DNA of 64,000 bases. It comes from Prochlorococcus sp. AG-311-D23 (lineage in GTDB: Bacteria; Cyanobacteriota; Cyanobacteriia; PCC-6307; Cyanobiaceae). The position numbers and the translations under genes are program-made. The stretch is from contig QBVH01000002.1 in NCBI GenBank assembly GCA_003284445.1, positions 41,848-105,847 on the forward strand. Reading direction: 5' to 3'. Under the pieces are notes generated by a model. The model was not told the origin of the DNA and searched no databases. It saw nothing but the letters and a program-made list of their open reading frames with translations. Below, one piece after another: positions 13,889-31,600 of this stretch. How positions within the stretch are numbered: the stretch's first letter is position 1; the number at the start of each line of letters is the position of its first letter.

Positions 13889-14149
13889 GTGAATAATCTC
13901 AAGCCAATCCTTTCGACTTTGGTCCTTTCCTTATCTTTTTACCTAATCGGATGCTCTGATAATTCTAAGGAAAGTAAAACCCATTCAATATTTGCGACCA
14001 AAACAGAAGCAGAGAAAGCAGCCAAGGATTTTAATTGCACCGGAGCTCATAGGATGGGTGAAAAATGGATGCCTTGTCAAAGCCATACTGATCATGAAGA
14101 GGCAGGAAAAAATGAATCACATGAGGGAAATCATCATCATCACCACTGA
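13889..14149 (+). CDS. small putative lipoprotein with DUF3721-like motif and His-rich C-terminus
   Basis: GTG start; lipobox-like SFYLIGC; FNCTGAHRMGEKWMPCQSH; C-terminus HTDHEEAGKNESHEGNHHHHH. Confidence 0.8.
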   Translation: MNNLKPILSTLVLSLSFYLIGCSDNSKESKTHSIFATKTEAEKAAKDFNCTGAHRMGEKWMPCQSHTDHEEAGKNESHEGNHHHHH

Positions 14150-14161
14150 TATTTTTAGGTA

Positions 14162-14605
14162 ATGACAACTTCAAATAGCACCAATCAGAACAATTCTGAA
14201 GCGCCTTCGCATTGTGGAAGCAAACCAAAAAAAATTGCATTTGGAATAGCACCACTTGGATTCATTTCCATTGGAATTGTTCCCATGGGTATTATTAGCA
14301 TTGGAATTGTTCCCATGGGTGTCGTTTCTATTGGCGCTGTAGCCATGGGAGTGGTTAATGCCTCAATAGTCGGAATGGGAATATTTTCTGCAGGAATAAC
14401 AACTATGGGTCTGAAAGTATGGAGTCCAGAAAACAATGCTATTCATGAGTCAATCAATAGTTCTAATTCTTCGTCTTCGAAAAATATTTATGCATATCCA
14501 ACTAAATCTCAGGCAGAGATCGAAGCCAAAAAGCTCGGATGCGCTGGAGTCCATAAGATGGGTAAATTATGGATGCCTTGTGCAATCCATATCAAACCTA
14601 ACTAA
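14162..14605 (+). CDS. hydrophobic decapeptide-repeat protein with C-terminal DUF3721-like domain
   Basis: GFISIGIVPM-GIISIGIVPM-GVVSIGAVAM-GVVNASIVGM-GIFSAGITTM repeats followed by YPTKSQAEIEAKKLGCAGVHKMGKLWMPC. Confidence 0.8.
   Translation: MTTSNSTNQNNSEAPSHCGSKPKKIAFGIAPLGFISIGIVPMGIISIGIVPMGVVSIGAVAMGVVNASIVGMGIFSAGITTMGLKVWSPENNAIHESINSSNSSSSKNIYAYPTKSQAEIEAKKLGCAGVHKMGKLWMPCAIHIKPN
14269..14320 (+). repeat. two copies of 22-bp direct repeat CATTGGAATTGTTCCCATGGGT, 30-bp period
   Basis: Exact copies at 14269-14290 and 14299-14320 within the decapeptide-repeat CDS. Confidence 0.95.
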
Positions 14606-15510: not shown

Positions 15511-16296
15511 CTAATTATTCTTGGGAAGCAAAATCAATGAGATGACACACAGAACGCTAATAAGAGGGCCTGGAGGCAAATTCATAATCATAGCTAGTGA
15601 AAAACCTATGAGTGATAAAACCAATCCAAATATGGATGATCGAAGCATGGCAATCCATAGAGATCTAGCTTTCTGCAACCCCAACAAAGTTGGGGTTGAA
15701 AGTAACGCAATCACAAGGATTACCCCGACTGCTGACATTGAGCTCACAATGACAAGTGCAGTGGTGAAACCTAGGGCTAAGTTCAAAAACGAAACATTAA
15801 CTCCACTTGAAGCAGCTCCTTCTGGGTCTAAGCCAATATGAACAAGCTTGTCGTAACCAAATAGCATTAGGCAAATGAATGCCGAGAATGCAATCAGAGT
15901 TCTTAATAAATCGCTCAAATTTGCAGTTAATAAATCACCAAACAAAACAGCTTCCAAATCAATCCTGATTCCAAGTAGAGGGATAAGCAAAACACCAAGC
16001 CCCATCGAACCAGCAAGAATTGTATTCATTACAGCTTCATAATTTTGATTTTTTTTATTTGTCAAACTTTCTGCAGCAATAGCTCCCACTAATCCGCTTA
16101 AGACACCTCCAATAGATGGATCAATCCCAAGAGCCATAGCCAAGGCAAGTCCTGGTAAAACACAGTGTGAAATTAAATTGACTTGAAGAAGCCTTTTATG
16201 AGTTATCAATACAGATCCCATTGCAGGGCAAAGCACTCCTGAGAAGGAAGTTATTAGAAGAGGAATTATCCACCAACTTGTATTAATAAAAGACAT
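15511..16296 (-). CDS. znuB: zinc/manganese-type metal ABC transporter permease
   Basis: ABC-3 family membrane protein; SVLITHKRLLQVNLISHCVLPGLALA; clustered with znuA/znuC and a Fur family regulator. Confidence 0.85.
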   Translation of the reverse strand: MSFINTSWWIIPLLITSFSGVLCPAMGSVLITHKRLLQVNLISHCVLPGLALAMALGIDPSIGGVLSGLVGAIAAESLTNKKNQNYEAVMNTILAGSMGLGVLLIPLLGIRIDLEAVLFGDLLTANLSDLLRTLIAFSAFICLMLFGYDKLVHIGLDPEGAASSGVNVSFLNLALGFTTALVIVSSMSAVGVILVIALLSTPTLLGLQKARSLWIAMLRSSIFGLVLSLIGFSLAMIMNLPPGPLISVLCVISLILLPKNN

Positions 16297-16313: not shown

Positions 16314-16751
16314 ATGTTCAGGAAGAAAGATCAAATTGAGATCTTGCTAATGAATAAAAGCAAGCCTGACATCACGAAGAGACAACAACAACTTCTCAAC
16401 GAACTCAAGAGATGTACTGATGAGTTGAGTGGACAAGAACTGCATAGAAAATTTCATAATGGTGAAAAGGCAATGGGTCTGACGACTGTATACAGGAACT
16501 TGCAAGCGTTAGTAAAGCAAGGCTTGATTCGCTCGAGACACCTCCCTAACGGCGAGGTCCTTTATGCCCCAGTTGAAAGAGATATTCATCATTTAACTTG
16601 CGTAAGCTGCGGAGAAACCACTCGATTGCAGGGATGCCCAGTCAAAACAATGCACATACCCCAGAAAGCCTCTAAAAGATTTGAACTGTTGTTTCATACT
16701 CTTGAATACTTTGGCCTCTGCCAAAATTGTTCGCAAGAATTGAATGCTTGA
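16314..16751 (+). CDS. zur: Fur family regulator, probably Zur (true start possibly ATG at 16350)
   Basis: MGLTTVYRNLQALVKQGLI, HHLTCVSCGET, LCQNCSQ CxxC motifs; next to znu genes. Confidence 0.8.
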   Translation: MFRKKDQIEILLMNKSKPDITKRQQQLLNELKRCTDELSGQELHRKFHNGEKAMGLTTVYRNLQALVKQGLIRSRHLPNGEVLYAPVERDIHHLTCVSCGETTRLQGCPVKTMHIPQKASKRFELLFHTLEYFGLCQNCSQELNA

Positions 16752-16777: not shown

Positions 16778-17473
16778 CTATATTTTCCATCTCAGATAGT
16801 TAATTGAACTAAGTTTTTCCTGCACCTCTTCAGGGTTACCAGAAGCCAAAATAATCTTATCTAGAACAACAACCTTGTCATAAGCATTTAATGATGTGCC
16901 CCAATCGTGACTACTGACGAAGACTGTCAATCCAGAATCAGCTAATTGACGGATAATTAATAAGAAGTCTTCCTTTGCGGGGGGATCAAATGCGGAACAA
17001 GGTTCATCAAGTAGAAATATTTTGGCAGGATTCATCAAGGTTTTCGCGAGTAATGCTCTTTGTTGCTGACCACCGGATAAAGCATCAAGTCGCCTTTTTG
17101 CTAAATGGGATATTCCAACACGTTGAAGAGCCGCTTCTAATTCACAACAAGTCGATTTCGAATGATTGACTCGACCTAAAGAAACTAATCCTTCAACAGT
17201 AATTGGAAAATTCCAATTCAGCTTCCCCCTCTGAGGCATCAAAGCCACTTGAGATCGATTATTTCTCAATGGTTTTCCGTCAACAGTAATTTCTCCTTGA
17301 TCCGGATTACTACTCCCTTGCAGCAGGCTTAATAATGTGGACTTACCAGCTCCATTTGGACCAACAAGAGCTGTCAAAGTACCTTGCTCAAGCTTTAGAG
17401 AAACGTTGCTTAAAGCAGGTTTAATTTTACTTGAATAAGAATATGTCAAATTTTCAGCAATCAAGCTAGGCAT
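16778..17473 (-). CDS. znuC: zinc ABC transporter ATP-binding protein
   Basis: Walker A GPNGAGKSTLL, LSGGQQQRALLAKTL, FLLDEP. Confidence 0.88.
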   Translation of the reverse strand: MPSLIAENLTYSYSSKIKPALSNVSLKLEQGTLTALVGPNGAGKSTLLSLLQGSSNPDQGEITVDGKPLRNNRSQVALMPQRGKLNWNFPITVEGLVSLGRVNHSKSTCCELEAALQRVGISHLAKRRLDALSGGQQQRALLAKTLMNPAKIFLLDEPCSAFDPPAKEDFLLIIRQLADSGLTVFVSSHDWGTSLNAYDKVVVLDKIILASGNPEEVQEKLSSINYLRWKI

Positions 17474-17523: not shown

Positions 17524-17538
17524 TGAAAATGATTATCG
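17524..17538. promoter_or_regulatory. Zur-box-like palindrome between divergent znuC and znuA
   Basis: TGAAAATGATTATCG differs at two positions from the 7-1-7 inverted repeat TGATAATnATTATCA described for cyanobacterial Zur sites. Confidence 0.6.
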
Positions 17539-17562: not shown

Positions 17563-19041
17563 ATGTCGAACTCTTCAAATCAGTCAAAAAAAACTAATCC
17601 CATAATCAATAAGACAGCTCTCAAAAGTTCTCTTGTTGCTGGAGCATTTTTATTTTCTGGCATCAATCAGACAGCACAGGCAAATACAAAATCAATTGTT
17701 GCTGTAGAGCCATTGGTTTGCGATGTTGTCTCTGCAATTGCACCACCCTCAACGCCCGTAACCTGCTTAATTGACAGAAAACAAGATGTTCATGATGTCA
17801 AGATCACTCCAAGGCAAGCTCAAACACTAAAGAGTGCGAAGCAAGTATTTACTCTTGGTTCAGAGATGAACCCTGCAATTAAAAAATGGTTAGATAATCC
17901 CTTAACTGTTGTTGTTGGCGTAAGTGCAATAGAAATAGACGATCATGACGACCACGATGATCATGACGATAATTCAGCTGCTAAACATGATGACCATGAT
18001 GACCATGGCGATGAACATGGAGAGGGAGATTTTGAGTGGGCTGGTGTTTTTGACCTTTCAGCAGGAACCTACAAATGGTCTTTTGCCAAAGTCAACGGAG
18101 ACTATGCAGATCCTGCCATGAAAATGGTTATTCTTAATTCCGGTGATATTGAAGCATCAGAAGAGCTTGCTAAAGAATTATTAGGATCCAAAAATTCAGA
18201 AGTTAAGCGCAATAATGACAAACTTGTTGCACAAGAAAAAGCCTACGTTCTTACATTTAATGAAAAGAAAGACATCACAACATTTACTGTAGAAATCAAA
18301 AAAGCTGGTAAATACGCTTTCTTTACTGAGCATATGCCTTTTGAGTTTGAAGCCGATGAACATTTCTTTAAAGATGTTGCAGGAGACGATGTTGAACCGA
18401 TTGCCCAAGTACCAGATGAAGGAGATCATCATCACCATGACCATGGAGGATTAGATCCTCATATCTGGCATGATCCACATAACATCATCAAAATGGGAGA
18501 TGTCATTTCCAAAAATATCAACAAGAAGATTTCCTTCTTTGATAGAGAAACTAAAAAAGTTTTAAAAGAAAGAACTCAATCTGTGAATTCCATTTTGGAA
18601 GATCTAGATCAATGGACACAAGTACAAATAGCTACAATTCCTTCTGATCAAAAGACGATGGTTTCTAAGCACAAATCGATGGAATATTACGGAGATGCAT
18701 TTGGATTAAAGACTATGAGCCTCCTAGATGTTCTTGGTGATTCATCCAGCCTTAGGCCTCAAACTATTGCAACAGTAATAGCGGAGCTTAAAGAAGAAAA
18801 CGTTAAAGTTTTATTCGCTGAGCAAAAGCCTCCTTCAAAGCTATTGAAAAACCTCAGCAGACAAACTTCCACTCCTATCGCATCAAATCAAATTTATGTT
18901 GACGGTCTAATGCCAACAGGAAATACTGTTTCAGTCGCTGTACATAACACCTGCACAATTGTTAATTCACTTGGTGGAAAATGTGATGAGAAAGAGGGTA
19001 ATGAACTTGAGGGGAAATGGAATTCTTTAATTAATCCTTAA
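17563..19041 (+). CDS. znuA: zinc-binding periplasmic protein ZnuA with His-rich loops and an inserted ~115-aa domain
   Basis: EPLVCDVVSAIAPPSTPVTCLID, DPHIWHDPHN, MVSKHKSMEYYGDAFGL; DDHDDHDDHDDNSAAKHDDHDDHGDEHGEG and GDHHHHDHGG loops flank the insert. Confidence 0.9.
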   Translation: MSNSSNQSKKTNPIINKTALKSSLVAGAFLFSGINQTAQANTKSIVAVEPLVCDVVSAIAPPSTPVTCLIDRKQDVHDVKITPRQAQTLKSAKQVFTLGSEMNPAIKKWLDNPLTVVVGVSAIEIDDHDDHDDHDDNSAAKHDDHDDHGDEHGEGDFEWAGVFDLSAGTYKWSFAKVNGDYADPAMKMVILNSGDIEASEELAKELLGSKNSEVKRNNDKLVAQEKAYVLTFNEKKDITTFTVEIKKAGKYAFFTEHMPFEFEADEHFFKDVAGDDVEPIAQVPDEGDHHHHDHGGLDPHIWHDPHNIIKMGDVISKNINKKISFFDRETKKVLKERTQSVNSILEDLDQWTQVQIATIPSDQKTMVSKHKSMEYYGDAFGLKTMSLLDVLGDSSSLRPQTIATVIAELKEENVKVLFAEQKPPSKLLKNLSRQTSTPIASNQIYVDGLMPTGNTVSVAVHNTCTIVNSLGGKCDEKEGNELEGKWNSLINP

Positions 19042-19051
19042 CTTTTACAGA

Positions 19052-19092
19052 TTCAATCCTGTCTACATTTGTAAAATGTTCACAGGATTGAA
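19052..19092. terminator. strong nested hairpin between znuA and the downstream ORF (terminator or attenuator)
   Basis: TTCAATCCTGT (19052-19062) / ACAGGATTGAA (19082-19092), inner stem ACATTT/AAATGT with GTA loop; no good U-tract. Confidence 0.6.
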
Positions 19093-19098
19093 CAAAAA

Positions 19099-19416
19099 TT
19101 GTTTCCAACCAAAGGATATAAAGTTTACAAACAACACTGGGAAGACCAGGCAGGGTTCATGGGTAAAACACCATGGGATAAAGACAAGATCTTAAAGCTG
19201 ACTATATCAACTGATTTCTATGACAATTTAAAAGAACTTCAATTTTCAAATCATTCGCTTAAGAAAGAGAATGGGAAACATACATTAAGAGTAAAAGTTC
19301 CATACAATTACTATAATCTGGATGATTTTGAATTAAAATCGCTTGAACTATTGGGTATCCAAAAGAGTTGGTTAACTGATATTTCTCTTGATAGCTCTAA
19401 ATGTTCACGTCGTTAA
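19099..19416 (+). CDS. hypothetical protein in zinc cluster (TTG start)
   Basis: ORF MFPTKGYKVYKQHWEDQAGFMGKTPWDKDK... between znuA and COG0523 gene. Confidence 0.55.
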   Translation: MFPTKGYKVYKQHWEDQAGFMGKTPWDKDKILKLTISTDFYDNLKELQFSNHSLKKENGKHTLRVKVPYNYYNLDDFELKSLELLGIQKSWLTDISLDSSKCSRR

Positions 19417-19425
19417 TTCAAGAAA

Positions 19426-20808
19426 ATGAGCAACAAGCAAAAAGTACCCGTAACAATACTGACTGGGTTTCTAGGATCTGGCAAAACAACTCTACTCAAT
19501 CGAATCCTGAGCGAAGAGCACGGTAAAAAAATAGCTGTCATTGAGAATGAATATGGTGAAGTTGGCATTGATCAAGGATTAGTAATCAATGCTGATGAAG
19601 AGGTTTTCGAGATGTCTAACGGTTGCATCTGCTGCACCGTACGTGGAGATTTAATTCGTGTACTAGGAAACCTCATGAAGAGGCGAGACAAATTTGACTA
19701 TGTATTAGTTGAGACTACTGGCCTTGCTGATCCTGGTCCTGTAGCTCAGACATTCTTCATGGACGATGAAATCCGTGATGAGTTTTCACTCGATGGCATA
19801 GTCACACTTGTGGACGCAGCCCACATAGAACAACAACTTGGGCGAAGTGATGAAAGTTCAGAGCAAGTTGCCTTCGCTGACGTCCTTGTTCTAAATAAAA
19901 CTGATCTTGTTTCAGACGAATCACTCGACAACTTAGAGTCACGTCTACGCGATATGAATCGTATGGCTCGAGTAATACGCAGTAAACAAGCAGACGTCTC
20001 AATTGATACTGTGCTCAATCTAAGTGCTTTTGATCTAGATCAAGTACTTCAGCGTCGTCCAACTTTTCTTGAACCAGAATATCCATTTGAGTGGACAGGT
20101 GTGTTTTCACTTGAAGAAGGTCGACATGAACTTACGCTCGAAGAAGGTCCAGACCCCACAATGTCTCTCGTCCTGTTATCAGACCAAGGTAAAGACGAGA
20201 CTGCTCTCAACACAGGTGCTGAATCATGCGTGAGACTCTACGCAGAACAAGAACAACCTATGAATCCAGGGGAGACAGTTCCAGTCGGCAAGCATGTGAG
20301 CCTTCAACTTCAATCTGAAGGGACTAAGTCATTCTTCATAGATGTTGATAAGAAAAGGGATATAGGTCTATTCACTCAACACACAGCCGAAGAGTTTAAT
20401 ATGAAATTAACTAAAGTAAATAATGCACCTACAGACGAGATAAATAATGATCAGAATATCTCTGTAATTTATCCAATAGCTGAGCGGACTTGGGTAGCCG
20501 AGCACGAACACGACGACGAAGTGGGTTCATTCGCTATCGAGCGAGTAGGTGATGTAGATCCAGAAAAACTCAATAGATGGTTAAGTCGACTCCTATCAGA
20601 AAAAGGTGTGGATATATTTCGGACTAAGGGATTCATTAGTTATGCGGGTGAGTCTAAGAGAATAGTGTTTCAAGGAGTACATATGCTCTTCACTGCTCAA
20701 CCTGATAAAGAATGGGGGAGTGAACCTCGCCGCAACCAACTTGTATTTATCGGGAGAAATCTTGATGAAAAAGAAATGATTAGGGAGTTTGATAAGTGCC
20801 TGGTCTAG
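19426..20808 (+). CDS. COG0523 (CobW-type) GTPase, putative metal chaperone, with an inserted domain shared with ZnuA
   Basis: GFLGSGKTTLLNRIL Walker A, IENEYGEVGID, SNGCICCTVRGDL (CxCC), VETTGLADPGPV, LNKTDLV; C-terminal CobW_C-like half. Confidence 0.93.
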   Translation: MSNKQKVPVTILTGFLGSGKTTLLNRILSEEHGKKIAVIENEYGEVGIDQGLVINADEEVFEMSNGCICCTVRGDLIRVLGNLMKRRDKFDYVLVETTGLADPGPVAQTFFMDDEIRDEFSLDGIVTLVDAAHIEQQLGRSDESSEQVAFADVLVLNKTDLVSDESLDNLESRLRDMNRMARVIRSKQADVSIDTVLNLSAFDLDQVLQRRPTFLEPEYPFEWTGVFSLEEGRHELTLEEGPDPTMSLVLLSDQGKDETALNTGAESCVRLYAEQEQPMNPGETVPVGKHVSLQLQSEGTKSFFIDVDKKRDIGLFTQHTAEEFNMKLTKVNNAPTDEINNDQNISVIYPIAERTWVAEHEHDDEVGSFAIERVGDVDPEKLNRWLSRLLSEKGVDIFRTKGFISYAGESKRIVFQGVHMLFTAQPDKEWGSEPRRNQLVFIGRNLDEKEMIREFDKCLV

Positions 20809-21869
20809 AAGAATTCAGCCCAAAAGGGATGCTTCACAAGGGCTGGTCTGCTCAAGTTGACGACTATGCAATTGTCTGTGGATGGGCACTAAAAGGTAAA
20901 GCCTTTTTAGTCGGTGACGTTGCTGGTGGGCTTTACTCATTTGAAGGGAAGTCTGGGAATCTCATTTGGCAAACAAAGGAAGTCCACAAAGGTGGCTTAC
21001 TCGCAATGTCTATTCATCCAGACGGAAATACTTTTGCAACTGCAGGCCAAGACGGAAAGGTATTGATATGGGAAAGCAAAGAAGGTAAATCAACTAACAC
21101 TTTAGAACTTGGGAAAGGGTGGGTTGAGCACATCAAGTGGTCTCCAGACGGTAAGTTTTTAGCAGTGGTCTTCACCAAATACGTCTATGTGTTTAATGAA
21201 AAAGGTAAAGAACACTGGAAGTCAGAAGAACATCCCAGTACTGTCAGCGCGATTGCTTGGTCTAATTCAAATGAATTAGCGACAGCATGCTATGGGCAGG
21301 TAACTTTTTTTGATGTAGCTAACAACAAGGTCAATCAAAAGTTGGAGTGGAGAGGCTCACTAGTATCTATGGAGCTTAGCCCTGATGGAGACATAGTGGC
21401 ATGCGGCAGTCAGGATAATTCTGTTCATTTCTGGCGTCGCTCAACAAATCAAGATTCAGAGATGACAGGATATCCAGGCAAACCAAGCCACCTAGCTTTT
21501 GATCAAACTGGAACAGTTCTTGCTACCGGGGGTAGTGATCGAGTGACAGTTTGGAGTTTTCAAGGCGATGGTCCTGAAGGGACTGTTCCAGGGGAATTAA
21601 TTCTTCATACTGAACCTATTTCTTGTCTTGCTTTCTCACATAGCGGGATGCTCTTAGCCTCAGGTGCCAGAGATGGTTCGGTGTTTTCCTGGTTTCTCCA
21701 AAAAGATGGTCAGGGTGATCCTGTTGGAGGTGCATTTGCAGGAGATCTTGTCAGCAAAATCGCTTGGCGGCCTGACGACTGTGCCTTGGCTGCAGTAAAT
21801 GCCAATGGAGGTATTACTGTTTGGGATTTCAAGGTTCGCAACAAGCAATCTCCTAAAGGATTCTCATAA
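20796..21869 (+). CDS. WD40-repeat protein, overlapping the COG0523 gene (GTG start)
   Basis: Repeated blocks such as SIHPDGNTFATAGQDGKVLIWE, ELSPDGDIVACGSQDNSVHFWR, AFSHSGMLLASGARDGSVFSW. Confidence 0.9.
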   Translation: MPGLEEFSPKGMLHKGWSAQVDDYAIVCGWALKGKAFLVGDVAGGLYSFEGKSGNLIWQTKEVHKGGLLAMSIHPDGNTFATAGQDGKVLIWESKEGKSTNTLELGKGWVEHIKWSPDGKFLAVVFTKYVYVFNEKGKEHWKSEEHPSTVSAIAWSNSNELATACYGQVTFFDVANNKVNQKLEWRGSLVSMELSPDGDIVACGSQDNSVHFWRRSTNQDSEMTGYPGKPSHLAFDQTGTVLATGGSDRVTVWSFQGDGPEGTVPGELILHTEPISCLAFSHSGMLLASGARDGSVFSWFLQKDGQGDPVGGAFAGDLVSKIAWRPDDCALAAVNANGGITVWDFKVRNKQSPKGFS

Positions 21870-30991: not shown

Positions 30992-31600
30992 TTACTGCGT
31001 AGGAGGTATCTGATTACACAAGAATTCTTCAATTATTTTTATCCCCTCCCCTGTTTTGGTATTGGTAAAGCACCAGGGCAGATTTTTCCTCATAAGCAGA
31101 GTATCTCTCTCCATTATTTTCAGGCTTGCTCCAACCATTTCAGCTAGGTCAATCTTATTGATAACTAACAAATCAGAACGTGTTATTCCTGGCCCTCCTT
31201 TCCTAGGAATCTTATCTCCCGCCGCGACATCAATTATGTATATACATACATCTACTAACTCAGGGCTAAAACTCGCAGCCAGATTATCGCCACCACTTTC
31301 AACAAATACTAAATCTAAAGTTGTAAATTTATACTCTAGCTCTTCAACCGCAATACGATTGATTGAACAATCTTCCCTTATCGCTGTATGTGGGCAACCT
31401 CCAGTTTCAACTCCTTTGATACGTTCCGGCACTAAAGCCTTTGAATTCGTTAAAAATTTTGCATCTTCTTGGGTATAGATATCATTTGTAACTACTGCAA
31501 TTTCTAATCGATCTTTAAGATTTTCACATAGTCTCTGAATAATAGCCGTCTTACCAGATCCTACTGGACCAGCTATACCAACTCTTAATTTACTTTCCAT
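30992..31600 (-). CDS. ureG: urease accessory GTPase UreG
   Basis: [46 protein letters not shown]. Confidence 0.96.

Follow-up and report, generated by a model that had tools for sequence, protein, structure and literature searches.

A shared domain inserted in ZnuA and in a neighboring COG0523 GTPase of Prochlorococcus recurs, apparently undescribed, in metal-trafficking proteins of several classes

How COG0523 GTPases and zinc substrate-binding proteins (SBPs) acquire zinc and pass it on is unsettled, and one bacterial locus raises a question that concerns both. In a stretch of 64,000 nucleotides from Prochlorococcus sp. AG-311-D23 (contig QBVH01000002.1, positions 41,848 to 105,847 of the forward strand; hereafter the window), the zinc SBP ZnuA and the product of a nearby COG0523 GTPase gene each carry an extra segment of about 115 residues. 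The source assembly comprises 1.47 Mb in 65 contigs and is 76% complete. An earlier sequence-only reading of the window had proposed that the two segments are the same module, that the module had been swapped between the two co-clustered genes, and that it serves a common metal- or partner-binding function. The locus asks, then, whether the two inserts are related, how they came to lie in neighboring genes, and what such a module would do.

The proposal that ZnuA and the GTPase share a module was borne out. In a direct two-sequence comparison, BLASTP aligned the inserts over 109 columns at about 26% identity (E = 8e-7), and hhalign matched a profile of cyanobacterial ZnuA modules (A3) to a profile of 30 GTPase modules (A4) over 105 columns with a probability of 99.4 (P = 1.3e-21, score 117.7); the profile-profile check that the sequence-only reading had called for was thus significant. 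In control comparisons, 200 column-shuffled versions of the GTPase profile reached a score of 26.2 and a probability of 34.2 at most, and the reversed profile scored 10.7. Used alone as a query, the ZnuA insert retrieved the GTPase insert in most genomes of the same genus (E about 4e-4 to 3e-6), and its matches in that genus were confined to ZnuA and the GTPase. A module match was present in 36 of the 41 same-genus genomes searched, including 17 of the 17 that are at least 90% complete, and nearly all matching genomes had exactly two such matches, one in ZnuA and the other in the GTPase. Because the pairwise E value, the profile match relative to its shuffled controls and the two-place pattern within the genus agree, we conclude from sequence comparison that the two inserts are homologous. 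The low identity of the direct pair is what would favor a chance resemblance between two unrelated beta-rich inserts; given the profile P value, the ceiling reached by the shuffles and the numerous intermediate sequences in other hosts, the probability of such a coincidence is close to nil.

In both proteins the module lies at a loop or a domain junction of the host. In ZnuA it lies within the His/Asp-rich loop: the Pfam ZnuA match falls into two stretches on either side of the insert, ZnuA/TroA-type sequence flanks the His-rich loop on both sides, as expected of a cluster 9 SBP, and a phmmer comparison with solved metal-binding SBPs aligned residues 30-110 and 292-453 to residues 20-100 and 131-286 of the solved chain. 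In the GTPase it lies at the junction of the G domain and the C-terminal domain (cobW, residues 8-184; CobW_C, residues 367-459), in a protein that bears the GFLGSGKTT Walker A motif at residues 14-22, GCICC at residues 66-70 and CobW_C, and is on these features a COG0523 member. The sequence-only reading had placed the starts of the module correctly, with FEWAG of ZnuA at nucleotides 18031-18045 and FEWTG of the GTPase at 20086-20100. Its ends were set too early, as the conserved unit runs further, up to a segment with an HxH motif.

No described domain covers either copy or the modules of 30 relatives in Pfam, none was found by NCBIfam in either copy or in 74 relatives, and a sequence search of the PDB gave no match to the module. 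The AlphaFold2 model of the GTPase copy, built from a 74-sequence alignment (mean predicted local distance difference test score, pLDDT, 91.3; predicted template-modeling score, pTM, 0.83), predicts a compact beta-sandwich of eight strands and one helix; a single-sequence run on the ZnuA insert (pLDDT 39) was discarded. In Foldseek searches with the GTPase-copy model, no PDB match was significant (best E 0.013, template-modeling score 0.34), the non-significant resemblances being to scattered lectin-like or carbohydrate-binding-module-like sandwiches, and no BFVD match fell below 1e-3. No description of the module was found in the open-access full texts searched, a statement that holds for that literature only, and the portions of PMC2770081 available to us describe a highly variable C-terminal region of COG0523 proteins with no mention there of the module.

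A scan of genome contigs with a three-member alignment yielded 212 relatives; counts of hosts and phyla refer to the best 80 of the 212. These fall in Chloroflexota, Acidobacteriota, Pseudomonadota, Verrucomicrobiota, Gemmatimonadota, Myxococcota, Actinomycetota, Bacteroidota, Planctomycetota, Bacillota, Cyanobacteriota, Poribacteria, a Thaumarchaeota metagenome-assembled genome and others, with the proviso that phylum labels of metagenome-assembled genomes may be wrong. A match to the window GTPase, in the G domain, the C domain or both, was obtained for 78 of the 80 hosts. The remaining two are a Paenibacillus CDF exporter (L094; Cation_efflux 1.6e-40, ZT_dimer 4.4e-12), in which the module follows ZT_dimer as a fusion, and an Alicyclobacillus polytopic membrane protein (L117), which holds it within a long His-rich loop and whose surroundings, judged from annotation and by eye, include metal-related genes. 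A second membrane protein of the latter type is encoded on an Alicyclobacillus plasmid (L051), and by eye these proteins look NicO-like.

Further architectures accompany these. Haloarchaeal plasmid records hold a ZnuA with the module (L055) and stand-alone copies (L052-L054), one of them beside a urease cluster, and Bacillota likewise have both a ZnuA form (L152, L153) and stand-alone copies (L154-L156, and more weakly L157). The stand-alone copies look like lipoproteins and are flanked by His-rich sequence; at two loci (L155, L156) the lipoprotein gene is directly upstream of a gene for another lipoprotein that by eye resembles an Fe/B12-type SBP. One 615-aa ZnuA open reading frame (ORF; L029, genome G203) holds two tandem module copies. 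In all, the module was found in more than 10 phyla and at least five architectures, in bacteria and archaea, and a search of viral contigs with the ZnuA insert gave no relative. Its prevalence is low and patchy among the genomes sampled (26 of 341 cyanobacterial, 7 of 300 Bacillota, 2 of 349 Pseudomonadota and 10 of 151 Chloroflexota). The classifiable hosts are metal-handling proteins, namely COG0523 GTPases, ZnuA and a CDF exporter, together with the Alicyclobacillus membrane protein.

This spread bears on how the window came to hold two copies. A swap between neighboring genes within this cyanobacterial lineage might be suspected from the fact that znuA and the GTPase gene are mostly adjacent and that the great majority of the 17 most complete same-genus genomes carry both copies. 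However, in a tree of 94 modules (121 alignment columns), the cyanobacterial and Bacillota ZnuA modules group with the Bacillota stand-alone modules (support 99/95), whereas the window GTPase copy groups with other GTPase modules, the CDF module and the two membrane-protein modules (100/97), its nearest relatives being other cyanobacterial copies and one proteobacterial copy. The haloarchaeal modules, from ZnuA and from stand-alone proteins, branch separately. With so short an alignment and several long-branched rows, the finer details of the tree are unreliable. A sister relation of the two window copies is nonetheless clearly excluded in this comparison: they share the roughly 26% noted above, against 56-94% identity of each to its own cyanobacterial counterparts, and in two relatives (G337, G393) the ZnuA and GTPase copies lie at distant chromosomal loci. 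Since the copies belong to separate supported groups with non-cyanobacterial members and lie far apart in relatives, a swap between neighbors does not explain them, and we consider it highly improbable; the range of phyla and the other hosts contradict it as well. Independent recruitment or an ancient split is the account of the two copies that the sequences point to. Co-occurrence of the two copies in cyanobacteria was also considered as a sign of joint function and rejected, because the ZnuA-module cases all come from one family.

What the copies retain at this distance is a small set of residues. In 94 modules from all contexts, which across many phyla are 21-42% identical, five positions are invariant (E4, W5, G7, H101 and E105 in GTPase-module numbering; 94 of 94) and a sixth nearly so (D25; 93 of 94). 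The polar ones are the E of FEW, the D of DPxM and the H and E of FTxHxPxEF, and in the model the set maps to the start of strand 1, the loop between strands 2 and 3, and the stretch after the strand at residues 93-99. Whatever the architecture, the module sits within or beside a His-rich segment. An HxH motif follows the EF motif in all 90 module proteins with a recognizable EF, compared to 10 of 214 other 60-residue windows of the same proteins. Most of them have it at a distance of 22-23 residues; the distance rises to 26-28 for bacterial ZnuA copies and to 35 for the window GTPase, and two values of 46 arose where the search pattern hit an earlier EF-like string. In three Verrucomicrobiota GTPases (L127, L135 and L136), the DPxM loop of the module itself carries a His-rich insertion (HDHEHGHDCGHDHHH).

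Because invariant or nearly invariant E, D and H residues and adjoining His-rich segments are common to all architectures, we infer a metal-binding domain, and because of the hosts found in this window zinc is the most likely metal; the placement of the module within a znuABC-Fur-COG0523 cluster with a Zur-box-like site also supports a role in zinc handling. The reading that we consider probable is that of a portable beta-sandwich domain, recruited repeatedly by metal-trafficking proteins, that binds metal, most likely Zn(II), together with its His-rich segment. The conserved E, D, H and E would bind the ion, the module and the adjacent His-rich or HxH segment would capture or hold it, and it would then be passed to the site of the host: the SBP cleft in ZnuA, the CxCC motif in the GTPase, or the transport path in the exporters. 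Metal binding, the identity of the metal and its transfer to the host site are all inferred steps.

Several observations weigh against this reading. The Alicyclobacillus membrane-protein host matches no Pfam family below E 0.05. The three Verrucomicrobiota modules with a His-rich stretch at the DPxM loop have lost PxEF and are not among the 94 modules counted. The genome of the window also encodes a COG0523 protein without the module (L199), which bears a long His-rich stretch at the junction that holds the module in the GTPases, so that the HxH seen in the latter may be a host feature. In addition, a folding core would explain the invariant W and G and the P/F positions equally well.

Of the common metal- or partner-binding function first proposed, a metal-related role common to both is the simplest interpretation, whereas a common partner is unlikely, because hosts are found on either side of the membrane and one of the two hosts can occur without the other; in two Bacillota genomes the ZnuA form is the only module copy. 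A docking domain that recruits a partner or self-associates, with no metal binding of its own, would suit the predicted beta-sandwich and its weak, non-significant likeness to lectin-like or carbohydrate-binding-module-like sandwiches, and the WD40 protein could be such a partner, as 59 of the 80 loci from other genomes have a WD40 homologue in the vicinity of the module gene. However, among those 80 loci no WD40 homologue was found at the two with non-GTPase hosts, one shared partner is hard to reconcile with hosts in the periplasm, cytosol, membrane and cell surface, and the polar residues held strictly are E, D and H next to His-rich segments in every context; we regard docking as unlikely. 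In an Acidobacteriales locus (L061), a GTPase with a shortened C-terminal part and WD40 share one open frame, which is either a fusion or an assembly error. About as unlikely, and if anything slightly more so, is a structural spacer that positions the flanking His-rich loops without a ligand of its own. Such a spacer would account for the near-constant spacing to His-rich segments that always adjoin and for the position at host loops or domain junctions, yet stand-alone copies exist and the role does not need E, H and E to be invariant over many phyla at such low identity.

The zinc-binding domain that we favor can be set beside known systems. HMA domains are small, portable metal-handling domains common to transporters and chaperones; the module differs from them in predicted fold and in having no CxxC, and no sequence relation to them was found in Pfam. 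Its nearest functional analogue would be ZinT (YodA), an accessory zinc-binding domain that occurs alone in the periplasm or at the cell surface or fused to a ZnuA-type SBP in AdcA, and that is a proposed partner of the ZnuA His-rich loop (PMC6689063). AdcA/ZinT is a precedent for a second zinc-binding domain on a ZnuA-type protein (PMC6689063). Unlike ZinT, the module sits within the loop of the SBP and is also found in cytosolic GTPases and an exporter; no sequence relation was found, with no ZinT family among the Pfam and NCBIfam matches of the module-bearing proteins or isolated modules scanned. The window ZnuA is otherwise an ordinary cluster A-I SBP whose insert sits at the His-rich loop of the zinc-specific members (PMC8786288), but that loop here holds a folded domain of about 115 residues. 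ZepA, a zinc exoprotein of Anabaena that has been described as having a signal peptide, an Ig-like domain A, a domain B of new fold and PEP-CTERM, was also considered. ZrgA was considered and set aside, as it gave a weak match over the His-rich segment (E 0.011).

Table 1. Features of the zinc cluster, in window coordinates.
Feature	Position	Strand	Basis
znuB, ATP-binding cassette (ABC) permease	15511-16296	-	ORF and sequence by eye
Fur-family regulator, probably Zur	16314-16751	+	Pfam FUR 6.5e-16
znuC, ABC ATPase, divergent from znuA	16778-17473	-	ORF and sequence by eye
Zur-box-like palindrome TGAAAATGATTATCG, 2 mismatches to TGATAATNATTATCA, in the 89-bp znuC-znuA gap	17524-17538	+	
znuA, cluster 9 zinc SBP, 492 aa, clean open frame	17563-19041	+	Pfam ZnuA 5e-47
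His/Asp-rich segment directly before the ZnuA module (DDHDDHDDHDDNSAAKHDDHDDHGDEHGEGD)	17938-18030	+	sequence
Module, ZnuA copy; E158, W159, G161, H257, E261 invariant, D183 nearly	18031-18405	+	
HxH segment HHHHDHGG after the ZnuA module, 26 residues past the EF motif	18427-18450	+	
Small ORF, 105 aa, between znuA and the GTPase gene	19099-19416	+	conserved
COG0523 (CobW family) GTPase, 460 aa, clean open frame	19426-20808	+	Pfam cobW 1.4e-61, CobW_C 1.9e-25
GCICC, putative metal-binding motif of the G domain	19621-19635	+	sequence; motif definition PMC2770081
Module, GTPase copy; E222, W223, G225, H319, E323 invariant, D243 nearly	20083-20430	+	
HxHDD element HEHDDEVGS between the module and CobW_C	20503-20529	+	
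WD40 beta-propeller gene directly downstream of the GTPase gene	20796-21869	+	Pfam WD40 5.8e-31

The surroundings of the two hosts are those of a zinc cluster (Table 1). COG0523 subfamily 5 of Haas et al. 2009 is described as having CxCC, WD40 and znuABC neighbors and Zur sites (PMC2770081); the window GTPase shares the CxCC motif, the WD40 neighbor, the znuABC cluster and the Zur-site association and, judged by neighborhood, fits that subfamily. Homologues of znuB and znuC also occur near module GTPases of other genomes. The Zur-box-like pattern is not enriched across the window (14 sites vs 10.3 expected), so the case for the site in the znuC-znuA gap is one of position. The 105-aa ORF has no Pfam match; it has matches in 19 of 21 same-genus genomes searched, mostly 56-84% identical, two of the listed places being weak. 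Upstream of the cluster are two adjacent small DUF3721 genes on the + strand (13889-14149, 3.5e-18; 14162-14605, 1.3e-17), one with GLTT repeats and one with a terminal His tail. A search of the same genome found a second cobW/HypB/UreG-family ORF of about 204 aa (window about 31076-31582, - strand; G000:C2:72923-73429; E 4.4e-37). The genome also has a second ZnuA-family gene (L001; G000:C1:125793-126581), whose 310-aa frame matches almost the whole profile and has no insert.

Taken together, the module is a real, widespread and apparently undescribed domain that connects metal-trafficking proteins of several classes. It also accounts for about a quarter of each window host for which Pfam offers no annotation. 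A broader and more tentative reading, to which we give somewhat less than even weight, is a bacterial and archaeal metal-binding superfamily in which one E/D/H site with an HxH tail links zinc uptake, delivery and efflux. Its members along that route might be, just as tentatively, a secreted scavenger lipoprotein, an import SBP, a cytosolic GTPase chaperone and an exporter. One domain shared by zinc importers, a CDF exporter, putative zinc chaperones and lipoproteins offers a testable handle on how metal is handed over.

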